Source: Pseudomonas marvdashtae (lineage in GTDB: Bacteria > Pseudomonadota > Gammaproteobacteria > Pseudomonadales > Pseudomonadaceae). From it: DNA of 64,000 bases. The position numbers and the translations under genes are program-made. Under the pieces are notes generated by a model. The model saw only the letters and a program-made list of their open reading frames with translations, searched no databases and was not told the DNA's origin. This document shows positions 44,488 to 55,926 of the stretch, one piece after another. The stretch is from the NCBI RefSeq assembly GCF_014268655.2, contig NZ_JABWQX020000001.1:2944001-3008000 (forward strand), read 5' to 3'. Positions within the stretch are counted from its first letter, which is position 1. Each line of letters starts with the position of its first letter.

Positions 44488-46008
44488 CTACTTGAGCCCC
44501 AACCGCCGCGCCAGTTTATGCAGGTTGCTTGGGTCGATTTCCAACAGCCGCGCGGCCCCCGCCCAGTTCTGGCCGCAGCGCTCCAAGGCCTTGAAGATGG
44601 CTTGCCGCTGGCAGTCGTCGACCGTCGCACTCAAGGGCCGCAACGGGACCTCAAGCGATTCCTGCGGCGCGCAGACCGTGGCCGTGCTGGCATTGACGTC
44701 CAAGTCGAGCACTTGCGGCTCCAGGGTCATGATCAGGCTGCGACTGGCGCCACGGCTCAGTTGTTTCAACGCCGCTCGGCTGATCACGTGCTCCAGCTCC
44801 CGCACGTTACCGGGCCAGGTGTAGGCCAGCAGCGCCTGCTCGGCGGCCGGCGACAGGCGTAGCCCGCGCAAGCCCAATCGCGTGCGGTTAAGTTCGAGAA
44901 AGTGACCGGCCAATATCAACACATCGTGGCCGCGCTCGCGCAGCGGCGGGATTGGCACTGGATAGACCGATAATCGGTGGTACAGATCGGCCCGAAACAG
45001 CCCGTCGCGAATGCTGTCGGGCAGGTGCCGGTTGGTCGCGGCGATGATCCGTACGTCAACGTGCAACGGCTTGTCCGCCCCCAGGCGCTGGATCTCTCCG
45101 TTCTGCAAGGTACGGAGCAACTTGGCTTGCACGGTCAACGGCAACTCGCCGACTTCATCGAGAAACAGCGTGCCACCGTTGGCCGCGTCGAAGCGCCCGG
45201 CGCGGTCGGTCGTCGCTCCGGAAAACGCGCCTTTGACGTGGCCGAACAATTCACTTTCGGCCAGGGACTCGGGTAACGCCGCGCAATTGACCTGCACCAA
45301 AGGCTTGTGCCCGCGTCGGGAAAGACGATGCAAGCGTCGGGCAAACAACTCTTTGCCAACGCCGGTCTCGCCCAGCAACAGCACCGGCAGTTCGGAATCA
45401 GCCAAGACGTCCAGTTCGTTGAGCAACTGCTGCAAGCCCTCGCTGCGCCCGAGGATTTCGCCCTCCACGGCCGGCAGGCGCAGGTCCGTCTGGTCGCTGC
45501 GCGACGCCCGCAGGCTGCGGTTCTCCTGCTCCAGCCGGGTGACCCGCACCGCCGCCTCGATCTGCAAGGTACAGCGCTTGAGTTCCTCCCGGGCGCGGCT
45601 GTCGAAGGTGCCGGCGTGCAATGCATCCAGGGTGATCGCGCCCCACAGGCTTCCTTCCACATAGAGGCTCACACCCATGCAATCGTGCACCGGCAACGGC
45701 TCGCCGACGTGGTGATCGAGCAGGCCGTCGTAAGGGTCCGGCAGGCGGCTGTCGGGTTCGAACCAGGTCGGCTCACGCGATGCCATGATCGCCGCCAGAC
45801 GCGGATGCTGGGCGATCACGAACCGACGGCCCAGCGCTTCGTGCACCAGGCCCACGGTCGCCACGGGCCGGAGGCTGTCGTCGTCGAGACGCAGCAAACC
45901 GACGGCGCCACTGTTGAAATATTCGCGCAGGGTCTGCACCAGGCGCTGCAATCGCACGGCATTGGGCAGCTCGACAATCAGGTCGGCGGCCAGGCTTTCA
46001 CGCAGCAT
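44488..46008 (-). CDS. norR: NO-responsive sigma54-dependent activator NorR
   Basis: The 506-residue enhancer-binding protein has an N-terminal GAF sensor (about 1-165). Residues matching the E. coli NorR iron site are present: Asp91 and Asp94 in LPDPYDG, His108 and Cys110 in VHDC. The AAA+ domain has Walker A GETGVGKE at 213-220 and a sigma54-contact loop GAFSGA (a GAFTGA variant). The C-terminal Fis-type helix-turn-helix ends NWAGAARLLEIDPSNLHKLARRLG. NO binding to the GAF iron relieves inhibition of the ATPase. It is divergent from a ytfE-type gene. The intergenic region holds three GGT-N7-ACC sites and a sigma54 promoter, and one site abuts its own start codon, suggesting autoregulation. 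Confidence 0.93.
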   Translation of the reverse strand: MLRESLAADLIVELPNAVRLQRLVQTLREYFNSGAVGLLRLDDDSLRPVATVGLVHEALGRRFVIAQHPRLAAIMASREPTWFEPDSRLPDPYDGLLDHHVGEPLPVHDCMGVSLYVEGSLWGAITLDALHAGTFDSRAREELKRCTLQIEAAVRVTRLEQENRSLRASRSDQTDLRLPAVEGEILGRSEGLQQLLNELDVLADSELPVLLLGETGVGKELFARRLHRLSRRGHKPLVQVNCAALPESLAESELFGHVKGAFSGATTDRAGRFDAANGGTLFLDEVGELPLTVQAKLLRTLQNGEIQRLGADKPLHVDVRIIAATNRHLPDSIRDGLFRADLYHRLSVYPVPIPPLRERGHDVLILAGHFLELNRTRLGLRGLRLSPAAEQALLAYTWPGNVRELEHVISRAALKQLSRGASRSLIMTLEPQVLDLDVNASTATVCAPQESLEVPLRPLSATVDDCQRQAIFKALERCGQNWAGAARLLEIDPSNLHKLARRLGLK

Positions 46009-46065
46009 GGTAGTGATGACCCTCCAGGGTTCGTTTGACCCCTCGCAGCCAAGGTGAAAATCACC
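46009..46065. promoter_or_regulatory. Three NorR-type enhancer sites (GGT-N7-ACC) between norR and ytfE
   Basis: Three exact GGT-N7-ACC motifs lie at 46009-46021 (GGTAGTGATGACC), 46028-46040 (GGTTCGTTTGACC) and 46053-46065 (GGTGAAAATCACC, within the palindrome AAGGTGAAAATCACCTT). This is the known NorR target form in Ralstonia. E. coli NorR also uses three sites. Confidence 0.82.
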
Positions 46066-46106: not shown

Positions 46107-46122
46107 TGGCACGGCGACTGCA
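46107..46122 (+). promoter_or_regulatory. Sigma54 promoter of the ytfE-type gene
   Basis: TGGCACGGCGACTGCA matches the -24/-12 consensus TGGCACG-N4-TTGCA with one mismatch (GG-N10-GC spacing). It lies 41 bp after the last NorR site and about 47 bp before the start codon. Confidence 0.82.
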
Positions 46123-46168
46123 ATGCCCGTTCATCTGTCCCTTCCGGGATTCAACCCAAGGAAACATG

Positions 46169-46843
46169 ATGAGCCTCGACCTGCTTGAACAAAGCCTCGG
46201 CCAACTGGCCTGCGACATTCCGGGCGCTACCCGGACTTTTCATCACTACAACCTCGACTTCTGTTGCGGCGGACAAAAGACCCTGCGCGAAGCCGCGCTG
46301 GGCAAAGGTCTGAACCCCCTGCTGATCGCCGACGCCCTGCGCACCCTGCAAGCGGCTGGCGAGCTGGGCCACGACTGGCGCAACGAGCCTCAGTCGCGGT
46401 TGATCGCCCACATCCTCGAACGCTACCACGCCCGCCACCGCGAACAACTGCCAGAACTGATCCGCCTGGCCCGGCGTGTCGAGCGGGTGCATGGCGCACG
46501 GCCCAGTTGCCCCAACGGTTTGGCCGACCATTTGGCAGACCTGTACCAGGAGCTTGAAGGCCACATGCTCAAGGAAGAACAAGTGCTGTTCCCGATGTTG
46601 CAACAGGGCCTGGGCGAGCGAGCCTCGGCGCCGATCCAGGTGCTGCGCTACGAACACGACCAGCACGGTGAAGCCTTGGAAACCATGCTCGCCCTCACCG
46701 ACCAGATCACCCCACCGGCCGACGCCTGCAACACCTGGCGCGCGCTGTATCGCGGGCTGGTGGAGCTGCGGGATGACCTGATGCAGCATATTCATCTGGA
46801 AAACAATGTGCTGTTTGTCAATGCGATGAAGCCGGTGCATTGA
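46169..46843 (+). CDS. ytfE: Di-iron iron-sulfur cluster repair protein (YtfE/RIC/DnrN)
   Basis: The 224-residue protein has the ScdA N-terminal motif FHHYNLDFCCGG (Cys32, Cys33) and a hemerythrin-like four-helix bundle carrying His/Glu ligands (HILERYHARHREQLPEL, LEGHMLKEEQVLFPML, HDQHGEALETM, HIHLENNVLFVNAM). Such proteins repair iron-sulfur clusters damaged by NO and are typical NorR targets; Ralstonia NorA is the parallel. Of two adjacent ATGs, 46169 is better spaced from AAGGA than 46166. Three NorR sites and a sigma54 promoter sit directly upstream. Confidence 0.92.
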   Translation: MSLDLLEQSLGQLACDIPGATRTFHHYNLDFCCGGQKTLREAALGKGLNPLLIADALRTLQAAGELGHDWRNEPQSRLIAHILERYHARHREQLPELIRLARRVERVHGARPSCPNGLADHLADLYQELEGHMLKEEQVLFPMLQQGLGERASAPIQVLRYEHDQHGEALETMLALTDQITPPADACNTWRALYRGLVELRDDLMQHIHLENNVLFVNAMKPVH

Positions 46844-47353: not shown

Positions 47354-48544
47354 TCATCCAGGATGCCCATCCACCCGCGCCTGCAGCAACATCGGGCCAT
47401 AGCGCCAGGCGTACAGGCCAAACGCCAATAACCAGCAAAGGCCCGCCAGCCAAAGCGCGGGCATCGGCAAGAGCAACACCAGTAGCACTCGACTGAAACA
47501 CGCCAGGTTCAACAAGATGAAGGCCAGCGTCATGCCCGTCGGCGGTTCGAGTGGACGCCCGGTATGGCCGAGACTGACGCGGGCGATCATCGCCAGGATC
47601 AGCCCGGCCATGGCGCCGATGGTCAAGGCATGCACCGCCAGGCTCGGGTTCAGCGGCGCGCCGAAGTGCCACAGCGCCATACCCAGGCACGCCACGGCCA
47701 GCCAAGCGTAGGCCAGGTGCAACGACCACAACAGCGGCACCCGCCACAGCCCGCGATCATGCCAGCGCACCAGTCGAATCCCGTGCCCCACCGCCAACGC
47801 GGTGAACAACAGGCCGACCCAGACGCTGACCGACAATGCCGGACCGAAGGCATACAACAACGCCACCAGCGCCGAACCCGCCAGCAACAGGCGGTCGAGC
47901 CACGGCCAAGGGGCCACGCCTTCGACCCGACCGAGGCCACGCTGGGTAAAGAACGGAATCACCCGCCCGCCAATCAACCCCATCATCGCCGCTACCAGCC
48001 ACAGGCCGGTGAGCACGCTTTGACGCTGCAGGCCTTCGTCGTGTTGTACCAGGCCGTACACCGACAAGCCATCGGCGGCGGCCAACAGCAGCAATACCAG
48101 CACGATCGGGTAATTGCGTTTCTGCCGCACGCGCCACAACGTCAGGCCCATCAGTGCTGCCACAGCCAAGGCAAAACCCATTTCCAACGCCATCAGCAAA
48201 GGCCAGGGCGCATCGGTCAGCCAGGCCAGCCGCGCGCCCATCCACAGCAACGCCAATGCGGCCAAGCGCTTGCCGCTGAGCCCGGGGCTGCCCGTCCAGG
48301 TCTGCACCGCCGTCAGCAGGAATCCGGCGATGATCGCCAGGCCGAAACCGAACAACAATTCATGACGGTGCCAGGCCAGCCAGCCGCCGGCCGGTTGCCA
48401 ATTGCCCAACCGTCCGCTGAACGCCGCCAGCCAAAAGGGAACCGCCAGCAACGCGAGCACGCAGCCGCCGAGAAAGAACGGCCGAAACGCCAGGCGCCAC
48501 AACGGCGCGATGGCCATGGCCTTGCGACGATCAAGCACTTGCAT
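47354..48544 (-). CDS. nnrS: NnrS family heme/copper membrane protein
   Basis: The 396-residue protein has about twelve membrane helices and matches NnrS: APLWRLAFRPFFLGGCVLALL near the N-terminus, WHRHELLFGFGLAIIAGFLLTAVQTWTG, GGRVIPFFTQRGLG and HALTIGAMAGLILAMIARVSLGHTGR. NnrS proteins bind heme and copper and lessen nitrosative stress in denitrifiers. ATG 48544 is chosen with GAGGAG upstream; GTG 48550 is less likely. A possible Dnr-type box lies about 85 bp upstream. Confidence 0.9.
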   Translation of the reverse strand: MQVLDRRKAMAIAPLWRLAFRPFFLGGCVLALLAVPFWLAAFSGRLGNWQPAGGWLAWHRHELLFGFGLAIIAGFLLTAVQTWTGSPGLSGKRLAALALLWMGARLAWLTDAPWPLLMALEMGFALAVAALMGLTLWRVRQKRNYPIVLVLLLLAAADGLSVYGLVQHDEGLQRQSVLTGLWLVAAMMGLIGGRVIPFFTQRGLGRVEGVAPWPWLDRLLLAGSALVALLYAFGPALSVSVWVGLLFTALAVGHGIRLVRWHDRGLWRVPLLWSLHLAYAWLAVACLGMALWHFGAPLNPSLAVHALTIGAMAGLILAMIARVSLGHTGRPLEPPTGMTLAFILLNLACFSRVLLVLLLPMPALWLAGLCWLLAFGLYAWRYGPMLLQARVDGHPG

Positions 48545-48627
48545 ACACAACTCCTCTGTCCCCGCTGGACCTCTGCGAGGTACGACAAATCAGGATTCCA
48601 ATGATGGGCTATCGACGCAAGCGGGCC

Positions 48628-48641
48628 TTGTCTCAGATCAA
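48628..48641 (-). promoter_or_regulatory. Possible ANR/Dnr box upstream of nnrS
   Basis: TTGTCTCAGATCAA (plus-strand reading) keeps 8 of 10 consensus bases of TTGAT-N4-ATCAA: one half-site is perfect and the other weak. No convincing -10 is visible at the expected distance. Confidence 0.35.
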
Positions 48642-48694
48642 GCCAGCTCGTTAGCGACGCTCACCTCGAACAGGCACTTGCAAGGGGCTTGCCG

Positions 48695-48723
48695 TTGTGG
48701 GAGCAGAGCTTGCTCGCGATGAA
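48695..48723. repeat. REP-like element (TTGTGGGAGCAGAGCTTGCTC type)
   Basis: A short repeat of the common Pseudomonas form TGTGGGAGC-AGAGCTTGCTCGCGA, able to form a small hairpin (GAGC..GCTC). It lies directly left of a second palindromic repeat. Confidence 0.6.
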
Positions 48724-48736
48724 CGATAACGCGGTC

Positions 48737-48849
48737 CGATCGTTCCCACGCTCTGCGTGGGAATGCCGCTTCGGACGCTCCGCGTTCGGCTGCGGAATGG
48801 ACGCAGAGCGTCCCTGGCTGCATCCCCACGCGGAGCGTGGGAACGATCA
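48737..48849. repeat. Palindromic intergenic repeat (CGTTCCCACGCTC family)
   Basis: The left part CGATCGTTCCCACGCTCTGC and the right part GCGGAGCGTGGGAACGATC are inverted copies, with two inner palindromes (GGACGCTC...; GACGCAGAGCGTCC). This is another repeat class seen between Pseudomonas genes. It separates the nnrS promoter from the NorR sites before dnr. Confidence 0.8.
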
Positions 48850-48854
48850 AATAG

Positions 48855-48912
48855 GGTGCTTATAACCCTTTCGTGGTTGTTTTTACCCTAAAACATTCGG
48901 GTCATTTTTACC
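48855..48912. promoter_or_regulatory. Three NorR-type enhancer sites (GGT-N7-ACC) upstream of dnr
   Basis: Exact GGT-N7-ACC motifs lie at 48855-48867 (GGTGCTTATAACC), 48875-48887 (GGTTGTTTTTACC) and 48900-48912 (GGTCATTTTTACC). Start-to-start spacings are 20 and 25 bp, nearly the same as the 19 and 25 bp of the norR-ytfE array. Confidence 0.8.
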
Positions 48913-48952
48913 CTTCCAGTCTCAACGCCCCACAAATCAAAGCTCCCAGGCC

Positions 48953-48968
48953 TGGCCCGGCTCTTGCT
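48953..48968 (+). promoter_or_regulatory. Sigma54 promoter of the dnr operon
   Basis: TGGCCCGGCTCTTGCT matches TGGCACG-N4-TTGCT with one mismatch and correct GG-N10-GC spacing. It starts 41 bp after the last NorR-type site, the same distance as at ytfE. Predicted transcription start is near 48979, about 25 bp before the small ORF at 49004. Confidence 0.78.
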
Positions 48969-49003
48969 CAGGCACGGCATTACCTTCAATTGTCGGGGTC
49001 CCC

Positions 49004-49093
49004 ATGAAATCCGCCGTGTTGCCGTTTACCTGGTTCGTCCTGCTCTCTTGCGTCGTGGCAATTGCCAGCGGCTTGTCCCTGAGCCTGGTCTGA
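49004..49093 (+). CDS. 29-residue single-helix membrane peptide upstream of dnr
   Basis: A short ORF (ATG 49004, TGA 49091-49093) encodes a peptide starting MKSAVLPFTWF and almost wholly hydrophobic to the end (VLLSCVVAIASGLSLSLV), so it would form one membrane helix. GGGG at 48995-48998 is a possible ribosome site five bases before the ATG. It begins about 25 bp after the predicted sigma54 start point and ends 37 bp before dnr, so it would be the first gene of that transcript. I do not recognise a family. It could be a small membrane protein of NO metabolism or a translated leader. Confidence 0.45.
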   Translation: MKSAVLPFTWFVLLSCVVAIASGLSLSLV

Positions 49094-49102
49094 TCCCGAT
49101 CA
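49091..49102. promoter_or_regulatory. FNR-type core palindrome just before dnr
   Basis: TGATCCCGATCA holds both TGAT/ATCA half-site cores with the right 4-bp spacer. It overlaps the small ORF stop codon and is only 28 bp before the dnr ATG, too close to act as a normal activator site for dnr. Autoregulation by Dnr or ANR is possible, or it may be chance. Confidence 0.35.
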
Positions 49103-49130
49103 CTTCTTCGTTAAAACAAGGATTCACGCC

Positions 49131-49814
49131 ATGGTGCTCCACCGTGTCCATCACCAGATTCTGCGCAGCCATCATCTGTTCGAGCCGCTGAACGAAGAGC
49201 AGCTTGACGAGCTGATGAGCCACAGCCAACTGTTGAGTATCGACAAGGGCGACCCACTGTTTCGCCAGGGCGAGCCGGCCCAGGCGTTTTACTTCGTGAT
49301 TTCCGGCGCGGTGAAAATCTACCGCTTGACCCCGGACGGCCAGGAAAAAGTCTTCGAGGTGATTGGCGAGCGCCAGACCTTCGCCGAAGCCATGATGCTG
49401 ATGGACACGCCCAATTACGTCGCGTCCGCCGAAGCCGTCGGCCCGACCCAGCTGTACCGCTTGTCCAACGCCACGTACATGCGCCTGTTGCAAAGCAACA
49501 GCCGACTGACCTTCGCGCTACTCGGCAAGCTATGCGTTCGCCTGCATCAACGGGTCAACGAGATTGAAACCCTGTCGCTGAAGAACGCCACCCACCGGGT
49601 GGTGCGCTATCTGCTGACGCAATTGGTGCGCCTGCAAACCGTCGACAGCCAGTTCGAATTGCCGATGGCCAAGCAATTGATCGCCGGGCACCTGTCCATC
49701 CAGCCGGAAACCTTCTCGCGGATCATCCGACGCCTGATCGATGAGAAAATCATCACCCAGGACGGTCGCCAGATCGCCATTCTCGATCGCCTGCGACTGG
49801 AACAGTTCGAATGA
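49131..49814 (+). CDS. dnr: NO-responsive CRP/FNR-family regulator Dnr
   Basis: The 227-residue regulator has a cyclic-nucleotide-like beta barrel (about 15-120; FYFVISGAVKIYRLTPDGQEKVFEVI), a dimer helix and a Crp-type winged helix (about 165-225) with recognition helix LSIQPETFSRIIRRLIDE. It lacks the N-terminal cysteines of ANR, as expected for heme-dependent Dnr, which senses NO and activates nir and nor genes through ANR-like boxes. ATG 49131 follows AAGGA. Upstream are three NorR sites and a sigma54 promoter. It overlaps dnrP by 4 bp. Confidence 0.93.
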   Translation: MVLHRVHHQILRSHHLFEPLNEEQLDELMSHSQLLSIDKGDPLFRQGEPAQAFYFVISGAVKIYRLTPDGQEKVFEVIGERQTFAEAMMLMDTPNYVASAEAVGPTQLYRLSNATYMRLLQSNSRLTFALLGKLCVRLHQRVNEIETLSLKNATHRVVRYLLTQLVRLQTVDSQFELPMAKQLIAGHLSIQPETFSRIIRRLIDEKIITQDGRQIAILDRLRLEQFE

Positions 49815-49999
49815 GCTGCCTGTATTGCCAACATGCCAACCCCGTCGATGCAAGCGAGTGCAGCCAATGCGGCATGCCCCTGCCGTTCGAGGCCGCAATG
49901 GCCGGCGAACGCCGGCTGCGGCGTTTCACCTGGTTCTGCGTCGGGCTGACGCTCTTCTGCATCGTCATGTTCTTCTGGTTGCCTCGCAGCATCGCCTGA
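49811..49999 (+). CDS. dnrP: DnrP-like zinc-ribbon membrane protein
   Basis: The 62-residue protein has an N-terminal zinc ribbon (CLYCQHANPVDASECSQCG; four Cys at 3, 6, 17 and 20) and one C-terminal membrane helix (about 38-58). Proteins of this size and place are called DnrP in denitrifying Pseudomonas, with no proven function. Its ATG overlaps the dnr stop (ATGA), so it is made together with the regulator. It converges on norD with a 4-bp gap. Confidence 0.78.
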   Translation: MSCLYCQHANPVDASECSQCGMPLPFEAAMAGERRLRRFTWFCVGLTLFCIVMFFWLPRSIA

Positions 50000-53468: not shown

Positions 53469-53909
53469 TCAGCCCTCCTTGTTTGGCGGCCAGCCATTGG
53501 TGTTGATTTTCGAGCTCCATTTGAGGAACTCGGCGATGTCGTCGACTTCCTGCTCGCTCAGGTTGAACTGCGGCATGGCCCGCCGGCCCGGAACGTTCAG
53601 CGGCTGCATTTTCATCCAGGCTTGCAGGAACGGCTTGAAGGCTTCGTCGCCCCCGCGCCGGTTCACCACGTTGCCCAGCTCCGGCGCAAAATACGCGCCC
53701 TCGCCCAGCAGGGTGTGGCAGCCGATGCAGTTGTTGCGCTCCCAGACGCCCTTGCCGCGTATCACCGATTCCGTCAGTTGCGCCTGGTTGCTGCGCTCCG
53801 GAAAGGTCTGTTCCGTGTGGTAGGTCAGGGCCAGGAATATCAGGAAAAAGAAGATGCTTCCCCCGAAGTAAATATTCCTGGCCATGCCTTTGGTGAAGGT
53901 ATCTGACAT
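53469..53909 (-). CDS. norC: Nitric oxide reductase cytochrome c subunit
   Basis: The 146-residue membrane-anchored cytochrome c has one helix (about 13-30) and heme motif CIGCH (Cys61, Cys64, His65). The later Met in RRAMPQF is the likely axial ligand. It passes electrons from c-type cytochromes to NorB. ATG 53909 matches the known N-terminus (MSDTFTKGMARNIYFGG). A perfect ANR/Dnr box and a TAGAAT -10 lie upstream. Confidence 0.96.
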   Translation of the reverse strand: MSDTFTKGMARNIYFGGSIFFFLIFLALTYHTEQTFPERSNQAQLTESVIRGKGVWERNNCIGCHTLLGEGAYFAPELGNVVNRRGGDEAFKPFLQAWMKMQPLNVPGRRAMPQFNLSEQEVDDIAEFLKWSSKINTNGWPPNKEG

Positions 53910-53937: not shown

Positions 53938-53980
53938 ATTCTAGGAACTGAGGGGTCGGAAACCGCTTGATGGCGATCAA
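53938..53980 (-). promoter_or_regulatory. norCB(D) promoter with perfect ANR/Dnr box
   Basis: TTGATCGCCATCAA at 53980-53967 is a perfect TTGAT-N4-ATCAA box. A TAGAAT -10 lies at 53943-53938, about 33 bp from the box centre, so the box sits near -41.5 as in class II FNR promoters. The norC start follows about 29 bp after the -10. Confidence 0.9.
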
Positions 53981-55912: not shown

Positions 55913-55926
55913 TTGATCGCCGTCAA
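55913..55926. promoter_or_regulatory. ANR/Dnr box between nirQ and nirS
   Basis: TTGATCGCCGTCAA matches the TTGAT-N4-ATCAA consensus at 9 of 10 bases. For nirS a CATAGC element near 55947-55952 is at class II distance. The box is 83 bp from the nirQ start, so it may also serve that gene. Confidence 0.8.

Follow-up and report, generated by a model that had tools for sequence, protein, structure and literature searches.

Genes and promoter elements at the dnr locus

The window (the whole stretch of 64,000 nucleotides that was analysed) carries, in this order, norR, ytfE/dnrN, a small membrane-protein ORF (orf145) and nnrS on the minus strand, dnr, a small zinc-ribbon gene, and then norD, norB, norC and the nir genes. 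The dnr product is a Crp/Fnr-family regulator with cNMP_binding (PF00027) and HTH_Crp_2 (PF13545) domains, and norB, norC and nirS lie nearby. norD was named by its position; norC and norB were identified by chains C and B of 3o0r, and nirS by cd1 nitrite reductase structures. The gap between dnr and the divergent nnrS is 580 bp. The features referred to below are as follows, with the strand in brackets (a dot for elements listed without one).

44488..46008 (-): norR; NF003451, 686.5 bits against a cut-off of 476; GAF and Sigma54_activat (AAA+) domains
46009..46065 (+): three exact GGT-N7-ACC sites before ytfE, starting at 46009, 46028 and 46053
46107..46122 (+): predicted sigma54 promoter of ytfE, TGGCACGGCGACTGCA, part of the second module in the window
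46166..46843 (+): ytfE/dnrN, iron-sulfur repair protein; NF008221, 330.5 bits against a cut-off of 254
47354..48550 (-): nnrS; PF05940, 363.2 bits
48628..48641 (.): FNR-like box TTGTCTCAGATCAA, 2 mismatches, lying 325 bp before the sigma54 promoter of dnr
48855..48867 (+): NorR-type site 1, GGT-N7-ACC, exact, 98 bp before the sigma54 element
48875..48887 (+): NorR-type site 2, GGT-N7-ACC, exact
48900..48912 (+): NorR-type site 3, GGT-N7-ACC, exact, starting 53 bp before the sigma54 element
48953..48968 (+): predicted sigma54 promoter TGGCCCGGCTCTTGCT (-24/-12), 1 mismatch to TGGCACGN4TTGC
49004..49093 (+): 29-codon ORF between the sigma54 promoter and dnr, read as a dnrO remnant
49131..49814 (+): dnr, Crp/Fnr-family regulator; best solved match the DNR protein 3dkw (3.5e-94)
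49811..49999 (+): small zinc-ribbon gene overlapping the dnr stop; DZR and Zn_Ribbon matches below cut-off
53967..53980 (.): Dnr/ANR-type box TTGATGGCGATCAA, 0 mismatches, before norC, whose start is placed at 53909
55913..55926 (.): Dnr/ANR-type box TTGATCGCCGTCAA upstream of nirS (56028), 1 mismatch

The zinc-ribbon gene, which we take to be dnrP-like, comes after dnr in 153 of the 155 loci examined. The 29-codon ORF has conservation of the coding type (0.913/0.955/0.872 at codon positions 1/2/3 within the clade of 20 genomes that includes that of the window, hereafter the window clade), and its start codon is kept in 20 of 20 aligned rows of that clade. ORFs with similar N-termini precede dnr in relatives, with lengths of 177-195 codons (L146, L149, L154) or 60-64 codons (L142, L143, L145); a dnrO-like ORF is absent in P. 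donghuensis (L140/L186) and in L151. On this comparison we read the 29-codon ORF as a remnant of dnrO, a gene name that we take to come from P. stutzeri. The alternative of an unrelated leader peptide was set aside in favour of this reading. The ORF possibly encodes a membrane microprotein or serves as a translational leader for dnr.

Upstream of this ORF the earlier note had placed three GGT-N7-ACC motifs, at 48855, 48875 and 48900, and a sigma54 promoter at 48953-48968. All three motifs are exact, and the promoter, which reads TGGCCCG-GCTC-TTGCT, departs from TGGCACGN4TTGC at one base; the predicted transcript start lies near 48979. The lone motif is common, with 41 occurrences in the window against 12.8 expected from shuffling, so that a single site has little weight and it is the arrangement that matters; the counting of single motifs as evidence was dropped. 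A module was defined as two or more sites, each with no more than one outer-base mismatch, followed after 30-160 bp by a sigma54 element with up to two mismatches. With both strands scanned, the window holds two such modules, at 46107 (ytfE) and 48953 (dnr), compared with 0.15 per shuffled window. A module with three exact sites arose in none of 60 window shuffles, and none came from 5000 shuffles of the local 280 bp at dnr. The two modules have the same geometry within a base: relative to the start of the sigma54 element, the sites begin at -98/-79/-54 before ytfE and at -98/-78/-53 before dnr.

A simple scan of 48551-49131 found neither a sigma70-type promoter nor a terminator. Across the genome, a strict form of the pattern has four matches (dnr and three others) and its reversed control one; this is uninformative on regulon size, because ytfE, with CTGC at -12, escapes the pattern. 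A REP-like palindromic pair (judged by eye) at 48740-48848 adjoins NorR site 1.

Conservation of the module and its joint presence with NorR

Upstream regions of dnr were compared in 93 genomes of the same genus and 52 other genomes of the family. The own-genus set holds the 88 of 398 genomes drawn that have dnr at E<=1e-90 and five more from a family-wide search, which gave 121 matching genomes, 16 of them weak (E 1e-41 to 1e-46) and left out; outside the genus, 52 of the 87 genomes with good dnr matches were included. A scripted search of up to 900 bp upstream located the module in 72 of the 93 and in 1 of the 52. Two of these matches, in G554 (own genus) and G032 (another genus), were reassigned to ytfE (in G554, dnr sits behind ytfE), and G442 and G303 were counted as positive after their sequences had been read, all parts being present with extra REP-like DNA (judged by eye) between site 3 and the promoter. 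After these corrections the module stands directly before dnr or dnrO-dnr in 73/93 own-genus and 0/52 other family genomes. Three exact sites are found in 61 of the 71 direct modules from the script, and fewer in the other 10. Among named records (the best 80 of 157), the module precedes dnr or dnrO-dnr in 68 and ytfE-dnr in two, and is missing in ten. Loci L197, L200 and L201 resemble G442 and G303 in having extra DNA between site 3 and the sigma54 promoter.

A lack of conservation in close relatives, which the earlier note had named as refuting its proposal, was tested for and not observed. Aligning the 20 genomes of the window clade gave a conservation of 0.997 for the 18 GGT/ACC columns, 0.779 for the N7 cores, 0.716-0.724 for the spacers and 1.000 for the -24/-12 bases of the sigma54 element. 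Where relatives carry norR at another place, a dnrO-like ORF of 177-195 or 60-64 codons comes straight after the module and is followed by dnr. The distance from the start of the sigma54 element to the dnr ATG is as short as 72 bp in P. donghuensis (L186), 67 bp in P. wadenswilerensis (L187) and 53 bp in P. rubra (L188). These observations bear on the idea that at dnr the module has lost its function and is only what remains, in decay, of an earlier norR-ytfE-dnrO-dnr operon. The shrinking of dnrO to 29 codons, the extra DNA of the five loci just named and the modules with fewer than three exact sites would fit such decay. However, no columns of the aligned region are better conserved than those of the sites and the promoter, the geometry is kept across the genus, the promoter lies directly before dnr in the three named species, and dnr responds in P. 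donghuensis (see below), which makes a functionless relic extremely improbable.

The presence of the module follows that of NorR. Of the 93 own-genus genomes, 72 have both and 18 have neither, two have NorR only and one the module only, so that 90/93 agree. In the two genomes with NorR and no direct dnr module (G500, G515), a module precedes ytfE-dnr. In one search set of 57 genomes, each of which has the module, a NorR orthologue of 84-100% identity was found throughout (incomplete in G343 and G529). In the other 36, no NorR orthologue was found in G283, G534, G536, G418, G553, G584, G234, G269, G272, G359 and G185, and in G554, G388 and G301 only about residues 175-506 of NorR are left; G179, G236, G309, G345 and G567, where nothing closer than a 63-66% relative was found, were scored as lacking NorR. 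G185 (P. chlororaphis PCL1601, locus L195) keeps the dnr array with each site one base off; no full NorR orthologue was found in its genome, and only norR residues 1-179 match near the dnr locus. The pairing also holds where norR is far from dnr on the same contig (about 1 Mb in G310, 90 kb in G621 and 57 kb in G487). On the dnr tree, NorR and the module each undergo about four changes; four independent pairs gave on average 2.7 in agreement and 1.3 with the module unchanged (median p 0.25). The association is thus tight, but few independent events lie behind it. Outside the genus, G003 and G068 have NorR orthologues (78% identical) and a dnr without the module, and the wiring of NorR to dnr is therefore not universal in the family; for the 52 other-genus genomes, NorR was searched genome-wide in 23, a further 14 show norR beside dnr, and 15 stand outside the count.

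The ytfE module, with up to three mismatches allowed in the sigma54 element, was found in 37/37 readable own-genus loci, in 15/15 loci of group g15 and 1/1 of g16, and in 0/10 of g9/g12. Loci L031-L044, which extend 1.2-1.5 kb upstream, were left out of this reading.

A second candidate for the dnr sites is encoded in the same genome, where a NorR paralogue (52%), taken as FhpR, lies beside hmp. An FhpR-like protein, about 50-54% identical to NorR, occurs in all of the 93 own-genus genomes except G500 and G529, and the presumed FhpR sites before hmp are likewise of the GT-N7-AC form. Use of the dnr sites by this paralogue rather than by NorR is nevertheless very improbable. The hmp sites of the window's genome (L009 3045-3102) read GGT..ACT, GGT..ACT and TGT..ACT; an ACT end is thus seen in 3/3 sites at hmp and 0/3 at dnr, and all six dnr and ytfE sites are GGT..ACC, a comparison that covers one genome and an hmp array assigned by position, since a scan of that genome found no standard sigma54 element beside it. 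The outer base of the site may set paralogue specificity. Moreover, 19/19 own-genus genomes without a full NorR retain an FhpR-like protein, and 18 of them are without the direct dnr module. Since the FhpR-like protein persists where the module is missing, and since the site ends differ, NorR is the better candidate. Taken with the geometry and conservation described above, the dnr operon is very probably transcribed from the sigma54 promoter, activated by NorR on the three GGT-N7-ACC sites.

FNR-like boxes and the ANR alternative

According to passages of PMC8139620 and PMC12403760, the P. aeruginosa cascade runs from ANR to dnr, and nir and nor are then activated by Dnr with NO. An ANR/FNR-type protein is encoded elsewhere in the genome of the window (L003; NF008365, 323.7 bits, cut-off 228), and the FNR-like box TTGTCTCAGATCAA lies upstream of dnr. 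On these grounds the main dnr promoter could still be of the ANR/Dnr type, with the NorR module as a minor or detoxification-only input. We consider this unlikely for the window clade, where the geometry of the -10 elements leads us to read the box as belonging to the nnrS promoter and not to that of dnr.

The box starts 503 bp before dnr. A TANNNT element at 21-22 bp from the box and facing dnr is present in 0/20 genomes of the window clade, against 11/11 relatives without a full NorR in this layout; in three other clades it is present in 3/28, in 8/8 (the clade beside the NorR-deficient genomes) and in 7/10 (the P. donghuensis clade), and the latter two speak for an FNR-type input to dnr there. 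The chance background of the dnr-facing pattern is 1.1%. Facing nnrS, a -10-like NATNAT is found in 20/20 genomes of the window clade, in 0/11 without a full NorR, and in 27/28, 8/8 and 8/10 of the other three clades; both patterns were picked after the FNR-like box sequences had been inspected. The arrangement of the ANR promoter of P. aeruginosa, in which a transcript into dnr begins about 41.5 bp after an FNR-type box, was seen in none of the 20 window-clade genomes. A further candidate, the possible ANR box CTGATCCCGATCAC just before dnr at 49090-49103 (2 mismatches), was rejected: the stop codon of the 29-codon ORF falls within it, the start would lie inside dnr, and part of the clade lacks it.

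Since no recognisable FNR-type promoter faces dnr, no oxygen-sensing (ANR) input to dnr is visible in the window clade. The statement of the earlier note that dnr lacks an upstream ANR box thus holds for this clade and does not extend to other lineages, in which an FNR-type promoter faces dnr beside or instead of that of NorR. A simple story, drawn from these distributions, would have an ancestor with both inputs, from which the window clade lost the FNR input to dnr, and in which the NorR input was lost together with NorR. A wider form of the proposal is that much of the denitrifying Pseudomonas in this genus group has passed control of dnr from an oxygen sensor to NO alone (NO to NorR to dnr, and NO to Dnr to nor and nir), with lineages without a full NorR relying on the FNR-type dnr promoter. 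We put this forward tentatively, and give it slightly less than an even chance.

The proposed NO relay and known systems

In the mechanism proposed here, the sigma54 promoter would drive an operon of the dnrO remnant, dnr and the dnrP-like gene. NorR would bind the three GGT-N7-ACC sites as a tandem array. NO acting on the GAF domain of NorR would free the ATPase, and the sigma54 promoter would be opened and Dnr made. Dnr would need NO again, and would then activate the FNR-type boxes before norCB (TTGATGGCGATCAA) and nirS (TTGATCGCCGTCAA). The comparisons above establish the sites, the promoter, their geometry and conservation, and the joint presence and loss of module and norR; binding of NorR at dnr, the response to NO, a direct requirement for NorR and the need for NO at both tiers are what we infer from knowledge of these protein families.

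Published RNA-seq of P. donghuensis P482 is informative in this respect; the module of this species was read in strain HYS. With tomato root exudate, as given in passages of PMC10256816, log2 changes were 6.36 for ytfE, 6.13 for hmp, 4.99 for nnrS, 4.44 for norC, 4.19 for norD, 4.18 for norB and 3.23 for dnr, and norR fell by 1.67; with maize exudate dnr changed by 0.31. According to the same passages the authors inferred exogenous NO, the nir genes were not induced, and the growth tests were shaken (PMC10256816). The rise of dnr with ytfE fits NorR control of dnr outside denitrification. In P. donghuensis an FNR-like promoter (box with three mismatches) also faces dnr, and Dnr autoactivation could therefore explain the induction as well. 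The central claim of the earlier note, that dnr is under NorR/sigma54 control, is very likely, in view of the ytfE-like geometry, the conservation, the joint presence with norR and the published co-induction of dnr and ytfE. Of the relay that it drew from NO through NorR and Dnr to nir and nor, the step from NorR to dnr is supported; the step to nirS is not, since the nir genes remained uninduced in P482 although dnr, norCBD and nnrS rose, which argues against the relay alone switching on nirS.

The dnrN-dnrO-dnrD arrangement of P. stutzeri is a precedent for an NO input into the dnr operon. In that species NO is said to induce dnrN and dnrO, upstream of dnrD (Vollack and Zumft, 2001), and the effect of RpoN was reportedly indirect, with transcription of nirS and norCB unchanged (Haertig and Zumft, 1998). 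The g15 loci, which are Stutzerimonas-like by inference, have the module before ytfE in 15/15 readable cases; dnr follows ytfE on the same strand, at a distance of about 0.24-0.85 kb. In the window layout, by contrast, nnrS and orf145 on the other strand separate dnr from ytfE, and dnr has its own predicted NorR/sigma54 promoter.

The NorR/sigma54 promoters of norVW, norAB, hmp and dnrN/ytfE, as described in passages of PMC1274295, are alike in having tandem GT-N7-AC repeats, a sigma54 promoter and NO as the signal. These known targets are detoxification genes, whereas dnr is a denitrification regulator. For P. stutzeri, Rodionov et al. (2005) predicted that dnrN and hmp are preceded by NorR sites, and for P. 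aeruginosa they name nnrS; in passages of that paper (PMC1274295) the NorR targets given for Pseudomonas are hmp, dnrN and nnrS and do not include dnr, and the term dnrD is absent from its main text. In the P. aeruginosa cascade, too, dnr is the second step; the first is the oxygen sensor ANR in passages of PMC8139620, and apparently the NO sensor NorR in the window clade. Dinoroseobacter (PMC5398030) and Bradyrhizobium (PMC6710368) likewise place a further regulator above an NO-responsive Crp/Fnr protein, but by the abstract openings of these papers the upper tier is FnrL or FixLJ-FixK2, rather than a sigma54 activator with the ligand of the lower tier. A literature search covering titles, abstract openings and passages found no report of a direct NorR/sigma54 promoter on dnr, of its spread in the genus or of its exchange with an FNR-type promoter, and it turned up no binding or mutant experiment. 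NorR promoters and an NO-responsive Dnr are known; what appears to be new is their wiring at dnr.

The usual picture of how Pseudomonas controls denitrification is drawn mostly from P. aeruginosa, in which ANR turns on dnr. If dnr is driven by NorR and sigma54 in most denitrifying species of the genus group, the trigger of N2O-producing respiration in them would be NO, sensed twice, and expression of dnr would remain low until NorR, RpoN and an initial pulse of NO were all at hand. The expected timing of nitrite reduction, and the cells expected to begin it, would change accordingly. In the wider form of the proposal, one ligand would gate two tiers with positive feedback, so that all-or-none entry into denitrification from cell to cell would be possible, and NO supplied from outside, as by plants, would prepare NO reductase but leave nitrite reductase off. 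The close relatives with a NorR-type, an FNR-type or both kinds of dnr promoter amount to a natural promoter swap in which the effect could be measured.

A minor observation concerns norR itself. Its match is limited to about residues 175-506 in L131, L242 (P. marginalis ICMP 3553_3), L250 (P. veronii), L135, L257 (P. rhodesiae) and L122; in these loci the GAF domain was not found, and the AAA+ and C-terminal parts remain. The ytfE site array is retained in L122, L131, L135, L242 and L250. A NorR without its sensor might be constitutively active.
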